A stretch of 64,000 nucleotides of DNA, taken from Nitrospira sp. Its GTDB lineage: Bacteria > Nitrospirota > Nitrospiria > Nitrospirales > Nitrospiraceae. Each line of letters begins with the position of its first letter. Positions within the stretch are counted from its first letter, which is position 1. The stretch covers positions 2,494,800 to 2,558,799 of the forward strand of contig CP126122.1 in the NCBI GenBank assembly GCA_030123565.1. Reading direction: 5' to 3'. The position numbers were made by a program, and so were the translations under genes. Under the pieces are notes generated by a model that saw only the letters and a list, made by a program, of their open reading frames with translations, did no database searches and was not told where the DNA came from. This document shows, one piece after another, positions 3,812 through 59,108 of the stretch.

Positions 3812-5833
3812 TCACAACTTGAGTTCAAGATCCTTCATCTTCAGCGTACGAATGCGATTCCGTAGCTCCGCCGCCCGCTCGAACTCCAGTTTCTTCGCAG
3901 CCGCTTTCATCTCCCCCTCCAGCCGCTGCACCAACTGCGCCACATCCTCGTCGGTCTTGTAGACTGCCGGCGCTTCAGCCGCCAGGTCCAGCTGGACATA
4001 ATCCAACTCGGCCGCCGCATAGTCGAGCGTCGGGATGCTTTTCTTGATGCTCTCCGGCGTAATCCCATGGGCCCTATTGTAGGCCTCCTGGATATGGCGC
4101 CGGCGCGCGGTCTCCTCCATGGCCAATCGCATCGAATCGGTGACCGTATCGCCGTAAAAAATGACCCGCCCGTCCACATTCCGCGCCGCACGTCCCGCCG
4201 TTTGAATCAGCGACCGATGCGAGCGGAGATAGCCCTCCTTGTCCGCGTCCAGAATCGCAACCAAGCCGACCTCGGGAAGGTCTAAACCCTCCCGCAACAG
4301 ATTGATCCCGACCAGCACATCGAAAACGCCGCGCCGGAGGTCGCGAATGATCTCCGCCCGTTCCAGCGTCTTGATGTCCGAATGCAGATAACGCACCTTC
4401 ACGCCGAGGTCGTGATAATACTCCGTGAGGTCTTCGGCCATCCGCTTGGTCAGGGTCGTGACCAACACACGGTTCCCCTTCACCGCTTCCGCCCGCACCT
4501 CGGCCAGCAGATTGTCCACCTGCCCCTTGGCCGAACGCACGTCGATGAGCGGATCCATCAGGCCGGTCGGGCGGATGATCTGTTCGACGACCTCGCCCTT
4601 GGCATGGTCCAACTCATACGGCCCGGGCGTGGCCGACACGTAGATCACCTGCTTCAGCATCCGCTCGAATTCGGCAAACTTCAGCGGGCGATTGTCGACG
4701 GCCGACGGCAACCGGAATCCATAATCCACGAGGGTCCGTTTCCGCGAAAAATCGCCCTCGTACATACCGCCCACCTGCGGCACGGTCGCGTGTGATTCAT
4801 CGACGATCAACAGAAAGTCCTTGGGAAAATAGTCCAACAGCGTCGGCGGCGGCTCACCCGGTGCGCGCCCGCTCAAATGGCGCGAATAGTTTTCGATCCC
4901 ATGGCAATAACCCATGGCGCGGATCATTTCCAAATCAAACTTGGTGCGTTGTTCGATCCGTTGCGCCTCCAGCAGTTGCCCGGTTTTTCTGAACGCAGCC
5001 ACCCGCGCCTCCAACTCCTCCTCGATTCCCGTGATCGCCCGTTCGTAGCGATCCGGCGCAATCAGATAGTGCGTATTCGGGTAGACGGCGATCTTCGGCA
5101 ACTTGCCCAGCGATTTCCCGGTGAGCGGATCGATCTCATGGATGGCATCGACCACATCCCCAAAGAGTTCGATGCGTACGGATTTCGCTTCCGACGAAGC
5201 CGGAAAAATCTCAATGACATCGCCACGCGCGCGGAAGGTCCCACGATGAAAATCCACATCATTGCGGGCATACTGAATATCCACCAACTTCGCCAGGATC
5301 TTTTCGCGCCTGGTCTCCATCCCCTCTTCCAGGTAGACCAGCATATCGTGGTAGACCTCCGGCGAGCCGAGGCCGTAGATGCAGGAGACCGACGACACGA
5401 TCAGCACATCATTGCGCTGCAGCAACGACGTGGTGGCCGCATGGCGCATCTGGTCGATCGCGTCGTTGATCGAGGCATCCTTCGCAATGTAGGTGTCGCT
5501 CTGCGGGATGTAGGCTTCCGGCTGGTAATAGTCGTAGTAACTGATGAAGTATTCAACGGCATTGTGGGGGAAGAACTGTTTGAACTCCTGGTAGAGCTGG
5601 CCGGCCAGGGTCTTGTTGTGCACGAGCACGAGCGTCGGCTTCTGCACCCGTTCGACCACATTGGCCATCGTGAAGGTCTTGCCGGAGCCGGTGACGCCGA
5701 GCAAGACCTGATGCTGCTTCCCGGCCAGCACCCCGGCCGTCAGCTTTTCAATGGCCTGTCCCTGATCACCGCAAGGTTTGAAGGGAGCTTCCAGTTTGAA
5801 CGGAGGCATCGCCTCGCATCTTAGCACGGACAT
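3812..5833 (-). CDS. uvrB: Excinuclease ABC subunit B
   Basis: UvrB, the damage-verifying helicase-like subunit of nucleotide excision repair. Visible: Walker [16 protein letters not shown], the damage-binding hairpin region [20 protein letters not shown], helicase motif [11 protein letters not shown], the ATPase motif QTAGRAARN and a C-terminal UVR coiled coil ([19 protein letters not shown]) that binds UvrC. I chose the ATG at 5833 (673 aa) because AGGAGG lies 11 bp upstream; an internal ATG at 5809 is possible. It is divergent from the LexA-like gene, and the shared palindrome 40 bp upstream suggests SOS control. Confidence 0.96.
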
Positions 5834-5853: not shown

Positions 5854-5882
5854 TTGACAGGCCGCTCCCGATCATGTAACGA
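5854..5882 (+). promoter_or_regulatory. Candidate promoter of the lexA-like/imuB/dnaE2 operon
   Basis: A perfect TTGACA at 5854-5859 lies 17 bp before TAACGA at 5877-5882. The predicted start point falls at about 5889-5891, on or next to the ATG at 5891, so the transcript may be leaderless. The -10 lies inside the 21-bp palindrome. The -10 itself is weak, so this is an inference. Confidence 0.45.
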
Positions 5883-5893
5883 TTCGTTACATG
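5873..5893. promoter_or_regulatory. Perfect 21-bp palindrome, probable SOS operator
   Basis: Half-site CATGTAACGA is followed by a single T and then the exact reverse complement of the half-site. The last three bases are the start codon of the LexA-like gene; uvrB begins 40 bp away on the other strand. Position, symmetry and the neighbouring repressor gene make it the likely operator for both directions. It does not resemble the E. coli CTG-N10-CAG or Gram-positive GAAC-N4-GTTC boxes. No second copy was noticed in the window. Confidence 0.7.
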
Positions 5894-6436
5894 CTCTCCG
5901 CCGACCTCAAGAAAGCGCGTCAGGCGCTGGGCTTGACCCAGGAACAACTCGCCGGCCGGCTGAGAACGACCCGCCAGACCATCGCGCGGTACGAACTCGG
6001 CACCCACAAGATTCCGTTTGCCGTTCGACTGGCGATCGATCACCTCACCACCGCGGCACACATTCCCCTGGCCGGTCTGGTGGCGGCCGGTGATCCGATC
6101 GAACCGATTCCCCAAACCGAAGTGGTCGAGGTCCCTCCCGGCATGGTGGGCCGCGGCGAGACGTTCGCCTTGCGGGTGAAGGGGGAGTCCATGCGCGATG
6201 AGGGGATTCTGCCTGGCGACCTTGTCATCGTCCAGAAACAGCACACGGCCAGAAACGGCCAGACGGTGATCGCGATCCTCAACAACGACGCCACGATCAA
6301 AACCTATTACCGCAAAGGCTCCACGGTCGAATTGCGTCCGGCGAATGACACCATGAAGCCGATTACGGTGAAACCGACGGATTCGCTGCGCATCGAGGGT
6401 CTGGTCATCGGCGTCATTCGCTACTGCACAAAATAA
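5891..6436 (+). CDS. LexA-like repressor: Xre-type HTH fused to S24 autoprotease
   Basis: A 181-residue protein. Residues 1-55 form a Cro/C1-type helix-turn-helix ([23 protein letters not shown]), unlike the winged helix of classical LexA. The C-terminal half is a LexA/UmuD peptidase: an Ala-Gly cleavage site in [10 protein letters not shown], the catalytic Ser in [10 protein letters not shown], and the Lys in [12 protein letters not shown]. It should repress DNA-damage genes until RecA triggers self-cleavage. No Shine-Dalgarno is visible, and the start codon lies inside the 21-bp operator. It heads a probable operon with imuB and dnaE2 and is divergent from uvrB. A HdiR- or phage-type repressor is an alternative label. 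Confidence 0.85.
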
Positions 6437-6573
6437 GACCGGGACGGATCCTTAATCTGGCGATCTGGCGATGGGGGTGATTGCAACGAGCTGAAATATA
6501 TTCCTGCAATGAACAGGGGGCATCGCAACGCTCTTTCAATCAACAGATCGACAGGTCACCACATTCTTTGCCC

Positions 6574-7758
6574 ATGGATCGTCAAATCGTGTGTCTTGCG
6601 GTGCCGTCGTTCGAACTCACACTTGCCCGCCTAAATGAACCTCGCCTGCGCGACAGGCCCATCGGTCTCGCACCGGTCGCGCACCCGCGCACCCTGTTGC
6701 AGGATGTCTCACCGGAAGCTGCCGCCGACGGCCTGTACCCCGGCATGGCCGTCCAGCAGGCCAGACAACTCTGTCCAGCGCTTCATATCCTGACGCCCGA
6801 TTCCAGCCGCACCGCTCAGGCTCATACCATGTTATCCCACATCATCACCCGTTACGCGCCGGTCTGGGAGCCGACCAGCCCCGGTTCCTTCCTGCTGGAC
6901 CTGACCGGCACCACGAGGCTCTTCGGCCCCACCTGCGATACCGCCGTGCGGCTGCAACGGGATATCGCCATGCAGATCCATCTCGACGGCATGTTGGGCA
7001 TCGGCAGCAACAAGCTGGTCGCGCAGACCGCCGCCGGCTTGCTTCAACCGACACAGATCTATGAGGTCCGTCACGGCTCGGAACGGGCCTTCATGGCTCC
7101 CTTGCCGATCGAGACCTTGCCCCTGCTCCACCGGCCGCAGATGAAACCGATTCGCCGATGTCTGGCCGACCTGAATCTCCGAACGTTCGGAGATGTGGCC
7201 GGCATTCCCCTCCCCGCCCTCGACATTGCCGTCGGGCGGTGGGCAGCCCCATTGCGACGCTGGGCCCAGGGCATCGACTCCACGCCGGTCATGTCGCCGC
7301 AGATCCAGCCTCGACTCGAAGTGTCATGCCTGTTGCAGCCGGACGACATCGATGACCATGCCATATGGCGCCGTTTGGCAAGTCTGCTTGAAGAACTCTG
7401 CCGCACCTTGCGCCTGCAACAGCGCGCGTGCAAGCGGTTGACCCTGACGATCCGCCACAGCGACCGGACCGATGCCACCGGACAGCAGCCGATCGAACCG
7501 GCCAGCTATTGGGAATATGATCTCGCTCCGCCGCTCCGAACGTTATTGCACCGCTGCTTCCGTCGTCGCATACGTCTCCGCACCTTGACGCTCATCGCAA
7601 CTGAACTGGCGGCTCCTTTCAAACAGGGCCGGCTCTTTGATGATGCGGCGGAGATCGCTTGCACCAGGCGAGCCCGTGCGCAGCGACTCTCGCTCGCCCT
7701 CGATCGACTCAGAGCGCGCTTCGGAAACCGAATCATTCAGTACGGAACCGGTGAGTGA
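6574..7758 (+). CDS. imuB: ImuB-like Y-family polymerase homologue
   Basis: A 394-residue Y-family fold protein. The segment GSFLLDLTGTTRLFG, the typical ImuB replacement of the polymerase active site, is present. The aspartate of the N-terminal Pol IV motif is replaced (CLAVPSFELTLA) and the Asp-Glu pair is absent, so it is probably non-catalytic. ImuB is known as a beta-clamp-binding adaptor that brings DnaE2 to damaged DNA. The ATG at 6574 fits the family N-terminus (MDRQIVCLAVPSFE); upstream TTG codons in frame add an unlikely extension. It follows the lexA-like gene by 137 bp and precedes dnaE2 by 15 bp. The usual partner imuA is missing. Confidence 0.85.
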   Translation: MDRQIVCLAVPSFELTLARLNEPRLRDRPIGLAPVAHPRTLLQDVSPEAAADGLYPGMAVQQARQLCPALHILTPDSSRTAQAHTMLSHIITRYAPVWEPTSPGSFLLDLTGTTRLFGPTCDTAVRLQRDIAMQIHLDGMLGIGSNKLVAQTAAGLLQPTQIYEVRHGSERAFMAPLPIETLPLLHRPQMKPIRRCLADLNLRTFGDVAGIPLPALDIAVGRWAAPLRRWAQGIDSTPVMSPQIQPRLEVSCLLQPDDIDDHAIWRRLASLLEELCRTLRLQQRACKRLTLTIRHSDRTDATGQQPIEPASYWEYDLAPPLRTLLHRCFRRRIRLRTLTLIATELAAPFKQGRLFDDAAEIACTRRARAQRLSLALDRLRARFGNRIIQYGTGE

Positions 7759-7773
7759 GGCCGACGGGCACCC

Positions 7774-10700
7774 ATGTCTTCTCCGTTCGTTCATTTGCAT
7801 GTCCATTCCTCCTATTCGCCGATGCAGGGAGTCCCGTCGCTGGAAGCCCTATGCCGGACGGCGCAGACGCAGGGCTGTGAGACCCTCGCACTCACCGACA
7901 CGAACGGGCTCTACGGCGCCGTCCGCTTTCTCGAGGTCGCTCGGCTATCCGGCATCAACCCCATCCTCGGCGCCGAACTCACCACCCCTGCTCACCGGGC
8001 GATCTTGCTGGCCAAAACCCCAGCCGGCTACGGCAATCTCTGTCACATCCTGTCGGCCCGCCATACCGATGAGTCCTTCGACTTCACCGCCACCGTCGCT
8101 CGACACAGGACCGGCCTGGTCATCCTTTCCGATGACCGATCGGCCCTCACGGCTTAGCATCGGGATTCGCCGGACGATCTGTTCGTCGAACTGACGCCGG
8201 GACCGGACATGGCCAAGGCCCTGACGTTCAGCCGCCGATCCGGATTGCCGCCGGTCGCGACGACCCGCGCTCAATTTCTGACTCCCTCCGAATACCCCCT
8301 CCACCGACTCCTGCGTGCCATTGCGCTGAACAGCAGCCTATCTCGTCTGCCGGATGACGCCTGTTGCCGGCCCACGCACTGGTTGATGTCGCCCTCGCAG
8401 ATCGCATGGCACTACCCCCATGTGCCCGAAGCCCTCACCAACAGCCGGCACATCGCCGAGGCCTGTTTCACCGACTGGCAGTTCGGCGACACGATCTTTC
8501 CCACCTTCCGACAATGTGCCGCGGAAGAGGCCTTCGAAACCCTTCGCGCAAAGACTTACGAGGGAGCATTGAAGCGCTACGGCACAGTGTCTGCCGCCGC
8601 CAGAACGCGTATCGAGCACGAGCTCGCCGTCATCCGCGACAAGGGGTATGCACATTATTTCCTGGTCGTCGAAGAGATCGTCCATCAGGCCCCACGCACC
8701 TGCGGGCGCGGCTCTGCCGCCGCCTCGATCATCTCATACTGTCTGGGCATCACCCACGTCGATCCGATCCGCCATCATTTATTCTTCGAACGATTCCTCA
8801 ATCCTGGACGGCACGATCCTCCCGACATCGACATCGACTTTCCCTGGGACGAGCGCGACAAGATTCTCAACTGGATCTTTAGCCGGTATGGGGACCGGTC
8901 TGCGGCGATGGTCGCCAACCAGAATACGCTCGCGCTCCGTGCCGCGATCCGCGAGACGGCAAAGGTCCATGGCCTCCCGGCTGCCGAAATCGGCCGCGTG
9001 TTGCCGCTGGTCTTGCGCCACACGCACCTCTTCGCCATGGACCCCGACAGGGCGGCACAGGCAGAGACGACGCAGCTCTGCCGAAACCTGCATCTCCAGG
9101 CTCCCTGGCCGGACATTATTCGATGGGCCGTCCAACTGGAGGGGCACTTCCGCAATCTGAGTCTCCATTGCGGCGGCATCGTGCTCGTGCCGGATGAGAT
9201 CCGCCGCTACGTACCGGTTGAAATTTCGGCCACGGGTCTTCCGGTCATCCAATGGGAGAAAGATCAGGCGGAAGAGGCCGGGCTCGTCAAGATCGACATC
9301 TTGGGCAATCGTTCGCTGGCCGTCATCCGTGACGCGATGGCCGCCGTCGCCGCGCATACGGGCCGGCAGATCGACGAGACGACGTGGGACCCGCTCGCAG
9401 ATGACCGGACCAAAACTTTGATCCGACAAGGCGACACGATGGGCTGCTTCTACGTGGAATCCCCCGCGACGAGACTGCTGCTCAAGAAGCTCTGGACCAC
9501 CATGCCGGCCGCGCAACAGGAACAGGCCGATGACTTCGAGTACCTGACGATCGTCTCCTCCATCATCCGGCCCGCCGCGCACCTGTTTGCCGACGACTTC
9601 ATCCGCCGTGCGCATGGGCACCCCTACCCTGTCCTTCATCCGGCTCTGCAAGGCGTGCTGGACGAAACCTTCGGCATCATGGTCTATCAGGAAGATGTGA
9701 TGAAGGTCGCGGTGGCGCTCGGCGGATTCTCGATCGAAGACGGCGATCAGTTACGGAAGATCCTCAGCAAAAAACACAGGCAACGGCAACTGCGGGACTA
9801 TCAACGGCAGTTTTGCGCGGGCGCCCTGGCGCGGGGAGCCGGAACGGCCGTCATCGAACAGATTTGGGCCATGATCATGAGTTTCGCCGGTTACAGTTTT
9901 TGCAAACCGCATTCGGCCAGCTACGCGCAGGTGTCGTTCAAGTCCGCCTTTCTCCGCGCCCACTACCCGGCCGAGTTCATGGCATCGGTCATCAGCAACC
10001 AGGGAGGGTTCTACTCGACCTTTGCCTATCTGTCCGAGGCGCGGCGGATGGGGCTGGCGATTCTGCCGCCGGATATCAATGCCAGCGAATGGGCTTACCA
10101 GGGCCGGGCACGGAGCATCCGCGTCGGGCTGATGCAGATCAAAAGTCTGCGTGAAGATCTCGTCAAGCGCCTGATCGCGCTACGAACAGAACAAGGTCCG
10201 TTTCGCTCCTTACAGGACTTTCTGAACCGGATCCAGCCAGATCCTTCACAAGCCCGGCTTCTCATCAAAGCCGGCTGTTTCGACGGTATCGCCGGAGAAC
10301 TTACCAGACCGGCTCTGCTCTGGCGGCTGCTGGCCTGGCAACAGCGATCATCGCCCGGCTATCTGCCCATCCCGCCGGACTATTCCCTGTCACGGCTGAT
10401 CGCAGAGGAGATCGAGGCATTCGGCTTTCCACTCCGCTGCCATCCGCTCGACCTGATTCCCGCCACGCAATACCAACCCCATATGATTTCGGCCTCCGAT
10501 ATGGCGCACCACGTCGGTCGGTCGGTCACCATGCTGGGCGTCTTGATTATGGAGAAGGTCGTCCATACGAAACATGGCGATCCGATGGAGTTCGTCAGTT
10601 TCGAAGACTTGACCGGGCTGTATGATGCCACCATCTTTCCGGATGTCTATCGGCGGACATGCCACCTGCTCGCCACGAACCGGGCCTATGCCATTGAAGG

Positions 10701-10815
10701 GGTCGTCGAAGCGAACTTTGCCGCCGTGACGCTGACCGTCACGGCGATCAGGAGAACGCCGCACAGGCGGGAAATCCAGCCGGCTTCCTCGCAGGCCGGC
10801 CGACAGGGTGGATAG
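7774..10815 (+). pseudogene. dnaE2: Error-prone DNA polymerase DnaE2, interrupted by an in-frame TAG
   Basis: A C-family polymerase of translesion synthesis, about 1013 codons. An N-terminal PHP domain starts FVHLHVHSSYSPMQG; the palm carries PDIDIDFPWDERD and LVKIDILGNRSL; a C-terminal OB-type segment (VTMLGVLIMEKVVHTKHGDP) ends the protein. The reading frame is continuous except for a TAG at 8155-8157 (codon 128), inside the PHP domain between LSDDRSALTA and HRDSPDDLFVELTPG. A single C-to-T change of CAG would explain it. Both halves are otherwise intact, so it is a recent nonsense mutation, an assembly error, or is suppressed. The ATG at 8209 could give an 868-residue protein lacking most of PHP. 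Confidence 0.85.
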
Positions 10816-58739: not shown

Positions 58740-59108
58740 TCAGTGAGGGACCGGCCCGACGGCCTTCGAGGCCCGTTCCCCCCGGGCAAGGTCCCGATGT
58801 TGTTCGGCCTTGCGATCCTGTTCCTTCGCCGCATCCTCATACGACTGGGCCAACAGGCGCGTTCCCGCCACCCAATCGGAATCAGGTCCGAAGAGGCGCT
58901 CGTAGACGACCGCTCGATGCGACATATCACGCGCCATGTACCGGAGCCTCTCCGCCTTCTGACTGTAGAATTCGGCGATCTTGTTCTGATCCTGCGCAGG
59001 ATCAGAAGTAGTCATATCGAGCTCGGTTCTTGCGCCTGTGCAACCGAGCAGGGAGCAGATGGCGGCGACCACCAACCATGTGAAACCGGCCGTCCAGAAC
59101 GATCGCAT
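58740..59108 (-). CDS. Small lipoprotein (distant member of the coiled-coil family)
   Basis: A 122-residue lipoprotein with lipobox SLLGC near residue 21. The mature part is helical and charged: QNKIAEFYSQKAERLRYMAR, DMSHRAVVYERLFGPDSDWV and SYEDAAKEQDRKAEQHRDLA. It shares layout, not clear identity, with the lipoproteins at 55177 and 55926. The ATG at 59108 fits a signal peptide. It starts 2 bp after the preceding stop. Confidence 0.72.
   Translation of the reverse strand: MRSFWTAGFTWLVVAAICSLLGCTGARTELDMTTSDPAQDQNKIAEFYSQKAERLRYMARDMSHRAVVYERLFGPDSDWVAGTRLLAQSYEDAAKEQDRKAEQHRDLARGERASKAVGPVPH

Follow-up and report, generated by a model that had tools for sequence, protein, structure and literature searches.

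The locus analysed here raises the question of whether the operator, the promoter, and the start codon of a LexA-like repressor gene form a single site, and if so, which protein would act there and on which genes. It lies in a 64-kb stretch of DNA (hereafter, the window) of a complete genome of 4.62 Mb, from a genus that includes Candidatus Nitrospira defluvii. Nitrospira are key nitrite oxidisers, and within the literature searched, no paper on LexA or the damage response in Nitrospira or Nitrospirales was found. As a basis for comparison, the operator was placed for 125 LexA-type genes, all from Nitrospirales. The genes under discussion are the following:

3812-5809, minus strand: uvrB, divergent, with a conserved start ATG at 5809 (start common to six species).
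5891-6436, plus strand: lexA2, predicted to encode a non-canonical LexA with an XRE-type HTH and an S24 domain (Ala66-Gly67, Ser100, Lys137; profile matches, alignment, and model).
6574-7758, plus strand: imuB, encoding a putative inactive-type Y-family polymerase homologue (profile matches and gene linkage).
7774-10815, plus strand: dnaE2, interrupted by an in-frame TAG at 8155-8157 (profile matches and comparison).

The lexA2 product, 181 amino acids long, combines an N-terminal HTH_3 domain (XRE, lambda-repressor type) with a C-terminal Peptidase_S24 domain, and it scores above the cut-off of the TIGR00498 lexA profile, with the match confined to residues 42-178. In the LexA alignment, neither the Ala66-Gly67 cleavage pair nor the catalytic residues Ser100 and Lys137 vary. 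In an AlphaFold model of the protein (mean pLDDT 85), the N-terminal domain consists of four helices and has no wing; residues 1-54 superimpose on HTH domains of the XRE type, Aca2 among them (Z 11.3, rmsd 0.9 over 54 residues), and the C-terminal domain on LexA bound to RecA (Z 15.7, rmsd 2.6 over 119 residues). Judged by domains and model, the gene at 5891 encodes a non-canonical LexA, in which a lambda-CI/434-type HTH is joined to a LexA-type self-cleaving S24 domain. The original prediction had called the gene LexA-like. Of the features of a canonical LexA, the S24 domain with its Ala-Gly pair and Ser/Lys dyad is present; the winged helix (PF01726) is found nowhere in the window's genome, LexA2 carrying HTH_3 instead. 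Those of a non-canonical LexA are all found, namely the CI-type N-terminal domain on an S24 domain and, as far as sequence tells, a palindromic operator ahead of both its own gene and imuB-dnaE2. No canonical LexA was detected above cut-off among the sampled genomes of the window's genus; within the order, it is present in three genomes of one genus (g3), which lack the XRE-S24 LexA family.

The DNA ahead of lexA2 contains a series of closely packed elements:

5854-5859, plus strand: TTGACA, the -35 element of the lexA2 promoter (TTGAC distance kept in 124 of 125 LexA genes).
5873-5893, no strand: perfect 21-bp palindrome CATGTAACGATTCGTTACATG (outermost pair not kept in relatives).
5875-5891, no strand: conserved 17-bp operator core TGTAACGATTCGTTACA (conservation, and covariation with the recognition helix).
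5877-5883, plus strand: probable -10 element inside the operator, either TAACGA (spacer 17) or TG-preceded AACGAT (spacer 18), placed by the fixed distance from TTGACA.
5889-5891, plus strand: predicted transcription start, at or at most 2 nt from the ATG, placed by promoter spacing.

The 21-bp palindrome is present as first described, with 10 complementary pairs around a central T at 5883, and only one perfect palindrome in the window is longer. Its length says little by itself, because about 6 perfect palindromes of this length are expected by chance in the genome (0.09 in the window). The pattern TGTAAC-N5-GTTACA, with its 12 fixed bases, is expected 0.10 times per genome and occurs exactly twice genome-wide, each time at the start of a LexA-like gene. 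The second copy, TGTAACCATTGGTTACA, belongs to lexA1 (L033), whose product is a paralogue of LexA2 with 60% identity, and which has the same TTGACA and the same overlap with the ATG.

Comparison with relatives narrows the element further. The 21-bp symmetry is already lost in the closest relatives of the window, and what is conserved is the 17-bp core, which extends to 19 bp in cassette-type genes (5874-5892 in the window). Counted from the palindrome centre, in-frame starts are found at +8 only in 43 of the 125 genes, at both +8 and +11 in 23, at +11 only in 52, and at +10 in 4. In the class starting at +8, the base that mirrors the T of the ATG is an A in 42 of 43 cases, so that the palindrome grows to 19 bp and incorporates the A and the T of that ATG. 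Of the three bases of the start codon, the conserved operator thus takes in only the first or the first two. The proposal that the operator contains the start codon holds for the 21-bp palindrome, which overlaps the in-frame ATG at 5891-5893, whereas the conserved core of 17 or 19 bp takes in only the edge of that codon.

TTGAC is found 28-30 nt ahead of the palindrome centre in 124 of the 125 LexA genes, and 112 have the full hexamer TTGACA. A scan for the sigma-70 consensus returned no promoter reaching the threshold, so the promoter assignment rests on this conservation. Given TTGACA at this distance, the -10 element should lie inside the operator and the start point at about 5889-5891. Of the TTGACA-17-TAACGA promoter proposed earlier, TTGACA is supported by its conserved distance from the palindrome centre, while TAACGA matches the consensus poorly and is merged into the operator. 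Translation from further upstream is not an option: ATG, GTG, and TTG are absent in frame ahead of the lexA2 ATG, and an earlier start is precluded because the TGA within TTGACA is an in-frame stop.

As predicted, no Shine-Dalgarno sequence precedes the lexA2 start, and an SD-like tetramer precedes the LexA start in only 1 of the 125 genes. The gene that follows stand-alone lexA1 is usually preceded, at a distance of a few bases, by AGGAGG, showing that Nitrospirales bacteria do use Shine-Dalgarno sequences. Their absence at lexA is not independent evidence, since an operator that reaches the ATG leaves no room for one. The two hallmarks of a leaderless gene, promoter elements that place the start point at the ATG and the lack of a Shine-Dalgarno sequence, are both found here, albeit with a weak -10 element. 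The fixed distance between promoter and operator in 124 of 125 relatives suggests a leaderless message and direct self-repression, so that the overlap of promoter, operator, and start codon in the original prediction, and the leaderless message derived from it, are favoured by conservation across the 125 genes.

Which protein would bind the operator is indicated by the recognition helix. Across paralogues, the operator type tracks the helix of the adjacent gene: TTRV occurs with TGTAACC or TGTTACC, TTRQ with TGTAACG, VTRQ with TGTAACA, KRKRL with TGTATCC, and RRS with TGTGAC. An Arg at one helix position, which we take to align with Gln29 of 434 repressor, coincides with G at position 4 of the half-site in all 12 genes with Arg and in none of the 113 others. 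In a tree computed from the S24 domain only, this pairing held in each of the 5 supported independent contrasts (sign test p 0.06, the lowest value that five contrasts can give). For the helix Gln and half-site position 7, 2 contrasts went the same way, and 3 showed no difference. The LexA2 proteins, which are the repressors of the cassettes, fall into a single supported group of 36 (100/97). In one of its shallow subgroups, recognition helix and operator change jointly several times, as though head and operator had been exchanged as a unit.

In genomes with at least two lexA genes in the 125-gene table, the operators of the paralogues differ. In G014, where both copies are of the LexA1 type, they differ only slightly, and in the window's genome, the GATTC-centred LexA2 operator and the CATTG-centred one of LexA1 have most half-site bases in common. 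Three genomes have three LexA paralogues with three different operators: G301 (L225, L243, L135), G117 (L230, L236, L238), and G270 (L151, L248, L261). With its own operator and matching helix, each paralogue probably runs a separate circuit. As a conjecture from these comparisons, the likely history is that the cassette gained its own repressor and that the operators diverged afterwards.

The gene order lexA2-imuB-dnaE2, with no imuA and no other gene in between at this locus, corresponds by profile matches to a mutagenesis cassette headed by a non-canonical LexA. The in-frame TAG in dnaE2 (8155-8157) is a Trp codon in the closest relative (G021, L035); a frameshift was considered and rejected in favour of this stop. 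Either the error-prone polymerase that the cassette encodes may be defective here, or the TAG may be a sequencing error.

Across the genus, half-sites of the motif family are conserved only at the starts of lexA and imuB. Relatives in which imuB-dnaE2 lacks a lexA carry an operator of the LexA1 type about 20 nt before the ATG of the operon. No operator was found upstream of recA in the window's genome; a site at recA is a trait of canonical LexA, although not universal among LexAs. The suggested search for the palindrome at damage genes thus returned a LexA paralogue and, in relatives, imuB-dnaE2, with recA lacking a site; further copies do lie near damage genes, at lexA1 and at the imuB-dnaE2 operons of relatives, so the prediction was not refuted by the condition named for it. 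Allowing up to 3 mismatches in a genome-wide search did not raise the number of sites above that of reversed-pattern controls (36 against 50), and in the six-species clade, no further consistent operator sites were found. Among the single near-matches whose surroundings were read, L173 proved to be another lexA start, and L100, L101, L102, L172, L177-L179, and L181 were discarded, as their surroundings lack the promoter layout. The predicted regulon would as such be tiny, comprising the repressors themselves and imuB-dnaE2, with the small gene that follows lexA1 as a probable further member. Stand-alone lexA1 is followed, in L033 (at about 6304-6549) and in relatives, by a conserved coiled-coil-like protein of ~82 amino acids, with no Pfam match above cut-off, which is a candidate SOS-induced small protein.

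The divergent uvrB was said to begin 40 bp away, at an ATG at 5833. This ATG is missing in the closest relative, and the start conserved in six species is at 5809, 63 bp from the palindrome and 74 bp from the operator centre. The same six species share TGNTAAGAT (5809-5826, minus strand), 6-8 nt before the uvrB ATG; uvrB may be nearly leaderless too. That the operator also represses uvrB is suggested by their adjacency in the six-species clade. However, we regard this as improbable: the distance of 74 bp between operator centre and uvrB start makes occlusion by the repressor unlikely, the operator falls outside the core promoter marked by TGNTAAGAT, and in other species, the motif is found without linkage to uvrB. 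An operator common to both genes was for that reason set aside, and uvrB is probably outside LexA2 control.

We consider an autogenous SOS switch at lexA2, with a leaderless or near-leaderless message, to be the best explanation of this locus, and hold it with good confidence. A LexA2 dimer would bind the 17-19-bp palindrome at its own gene. Since this palindrome spans both the -10 element and the start-point region and directly adjoins the ATG, the bound dimer would keep RNA polymerase off the TTGACA promoter, and lexA2-imuB-dnaE2 would be shut down for as long as it stayed bound. Upon DNA damage, RecA filaments would trigger cleavage of LexA2 at Ala66-Gly67. This would free a transcript whose 5' end coincides with the AUG or lies no more than ~2 nt from it, and whose translation proceeds with no Shine-Dalgarno sequence; newly made LexA2 would then re-establish the block.

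A variant of this model keeps operator and autorepression and gives the message a leader, either because transcription starts further upstream or because a short leader carries a non-SD initiation signal; that operator and ATG overlap would then be only a by-product of compactness. The weak -10 element speaks for it, as do the many LexA1-type genes whose sole start lies 3 nt past the operator edge, and the lexA-less imuB operons, in which the same operator is followed by a leader of about 20 nt. However, TTGACA stands at a fixed, promoter-like distance in 124 of 125 genes, from which transcription would begin at the ATG, and neither a second conserved promoter upstream nor a Shine-Dalgarno sequence was seen; we deem the variant unlikely. 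The binding protein could also be a different regulator, or both LexA paralogues, rather than specifically the product of the adjacent gene. Cross-binding is conceivable given how similar the LexA1 and LexA2 operators are in this genome, but the operator type follows the helix next to it, and paralogues' operators differ in nearly all multi-copy genomes, which leaves this reading a low probability. Finally, nothing specific argues for an RNA hairpin or a chance palindrome without regulatory role beyond the fact that such lengths arise a few times per genome at random. The restriction of conserved half-sites to lexA and imuB starts and the covariation with the HTH argue against both, and most of a hairpin would stay untranscribed, upstream of the predicted start point, making this very improbable.

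The proposed lexA2 switch has partial counterparts elsewhere. Bacteria with two lexA genes share autoregulation, a recA outside the regulon, and linkage of lexA to a Y-family polymerase; their operator, unlike the one described here, is GGTT-N10-AACC, and we take their LexAs to be of the winged-helix type. In phage lambda, cI transcribed from PRM yields a leaderless message of a CI-type self-cleaving repressor, as we propose for lexA2. The lambda operators, however, are not known to take in the start codon of cI, and CI is in addition an activator of its own promoter.

By its description, the non-canonical LexA of Bacteroidetes is the same kind of protein, an HTH_3/CI-type head on a self-cleaving S24 domain in the role of LexA, with palindromic operators of fixed spacer and imuB-dnaE2 among its targets (PMC8565304). 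It was described as restricted to Bacteroidetes, with recA and many other genes under its control (Sanchez-Osuna et al. 2021, PMC8565304); here, in Nitrospirales, no site was found at recA, the predicted regulon is tiny, and several paralogues each have an operator of their own. HdiR (Lactococcus/Streptococcus) and UmuDAb (Acinetobacter) are S24-family stand-ins for LexA that control themselves and error-prone polymerases, in different lineages; in the parts of PMC8565304 consulted, an overlap with the start codon is not mentioned. In Deinococcus-Thermus, leaderless genes with a -10 element next to the ORF are established (PMC12340547), and DdrO motifs of Deinococcus overlap damage-gene promoters (PMC5552922). 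The DdrO/RDRM system resembles lexA2 in its XRE-type repressor, a 17-bp palindrome in or near promoters, and several messages starting at the ATG, but DdrO has no S24 domain and is cleaved by the IrrE protease, and its motif positions vary rather than being fixed at the repressor's start codon (PMC12340547, PMC5552922). The lexA-imuA-imuB-dnaE2 cassettes likewise place lexA at the head of imuB-dnaE2; the operon here differs in lacking imuA and in its XRE-S24 type of LexA (PMC3765255, PMC6511836).

CI-headed LexA in Bacteroidetes (PMC8565304), minimal HdiR/UmuDAb systems, and bacteria with two lexA genes are thus already known. What is new is that operator, promoter, and start codon are fused in a fixed arrangement throughout the order, together with several apparently insulated paralogues per genome. 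Taken jointly, the data could mean that Nitrospirales swapped classical LexA for a phage-type LexA family with one fused promoter-operator-start element, and that a cell runs two or three mutually insulated SOS circuits in which helix and operator change together; the leaderless start would then place operator, promoter, and ribosome entry at one site under joint selection. We see the case for this wider reading as evenly balanced. The data predict a LexA substitute in Nitrospira, its operator code, and its targets, which would be error-prone polymerases and not recA. Furthermore, the paralogues, up to three per genome and with matched changes in repressor and operator, form a natural series for the study of insulation after regulator duplication, and the fusion of operator and start codon across an order makes a possible functional tie between leaderless start and autorepression directly testable.

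Two other long palindromes were seen in the window: a perfect one of 20 bp within imuB (ATCTCCGAACGTTCGGAGAT, 7175-7194), and the longest of the window, TTCTGATCCTGCGCAGGATCAGAA, of 24 bp, at 58984-59007.
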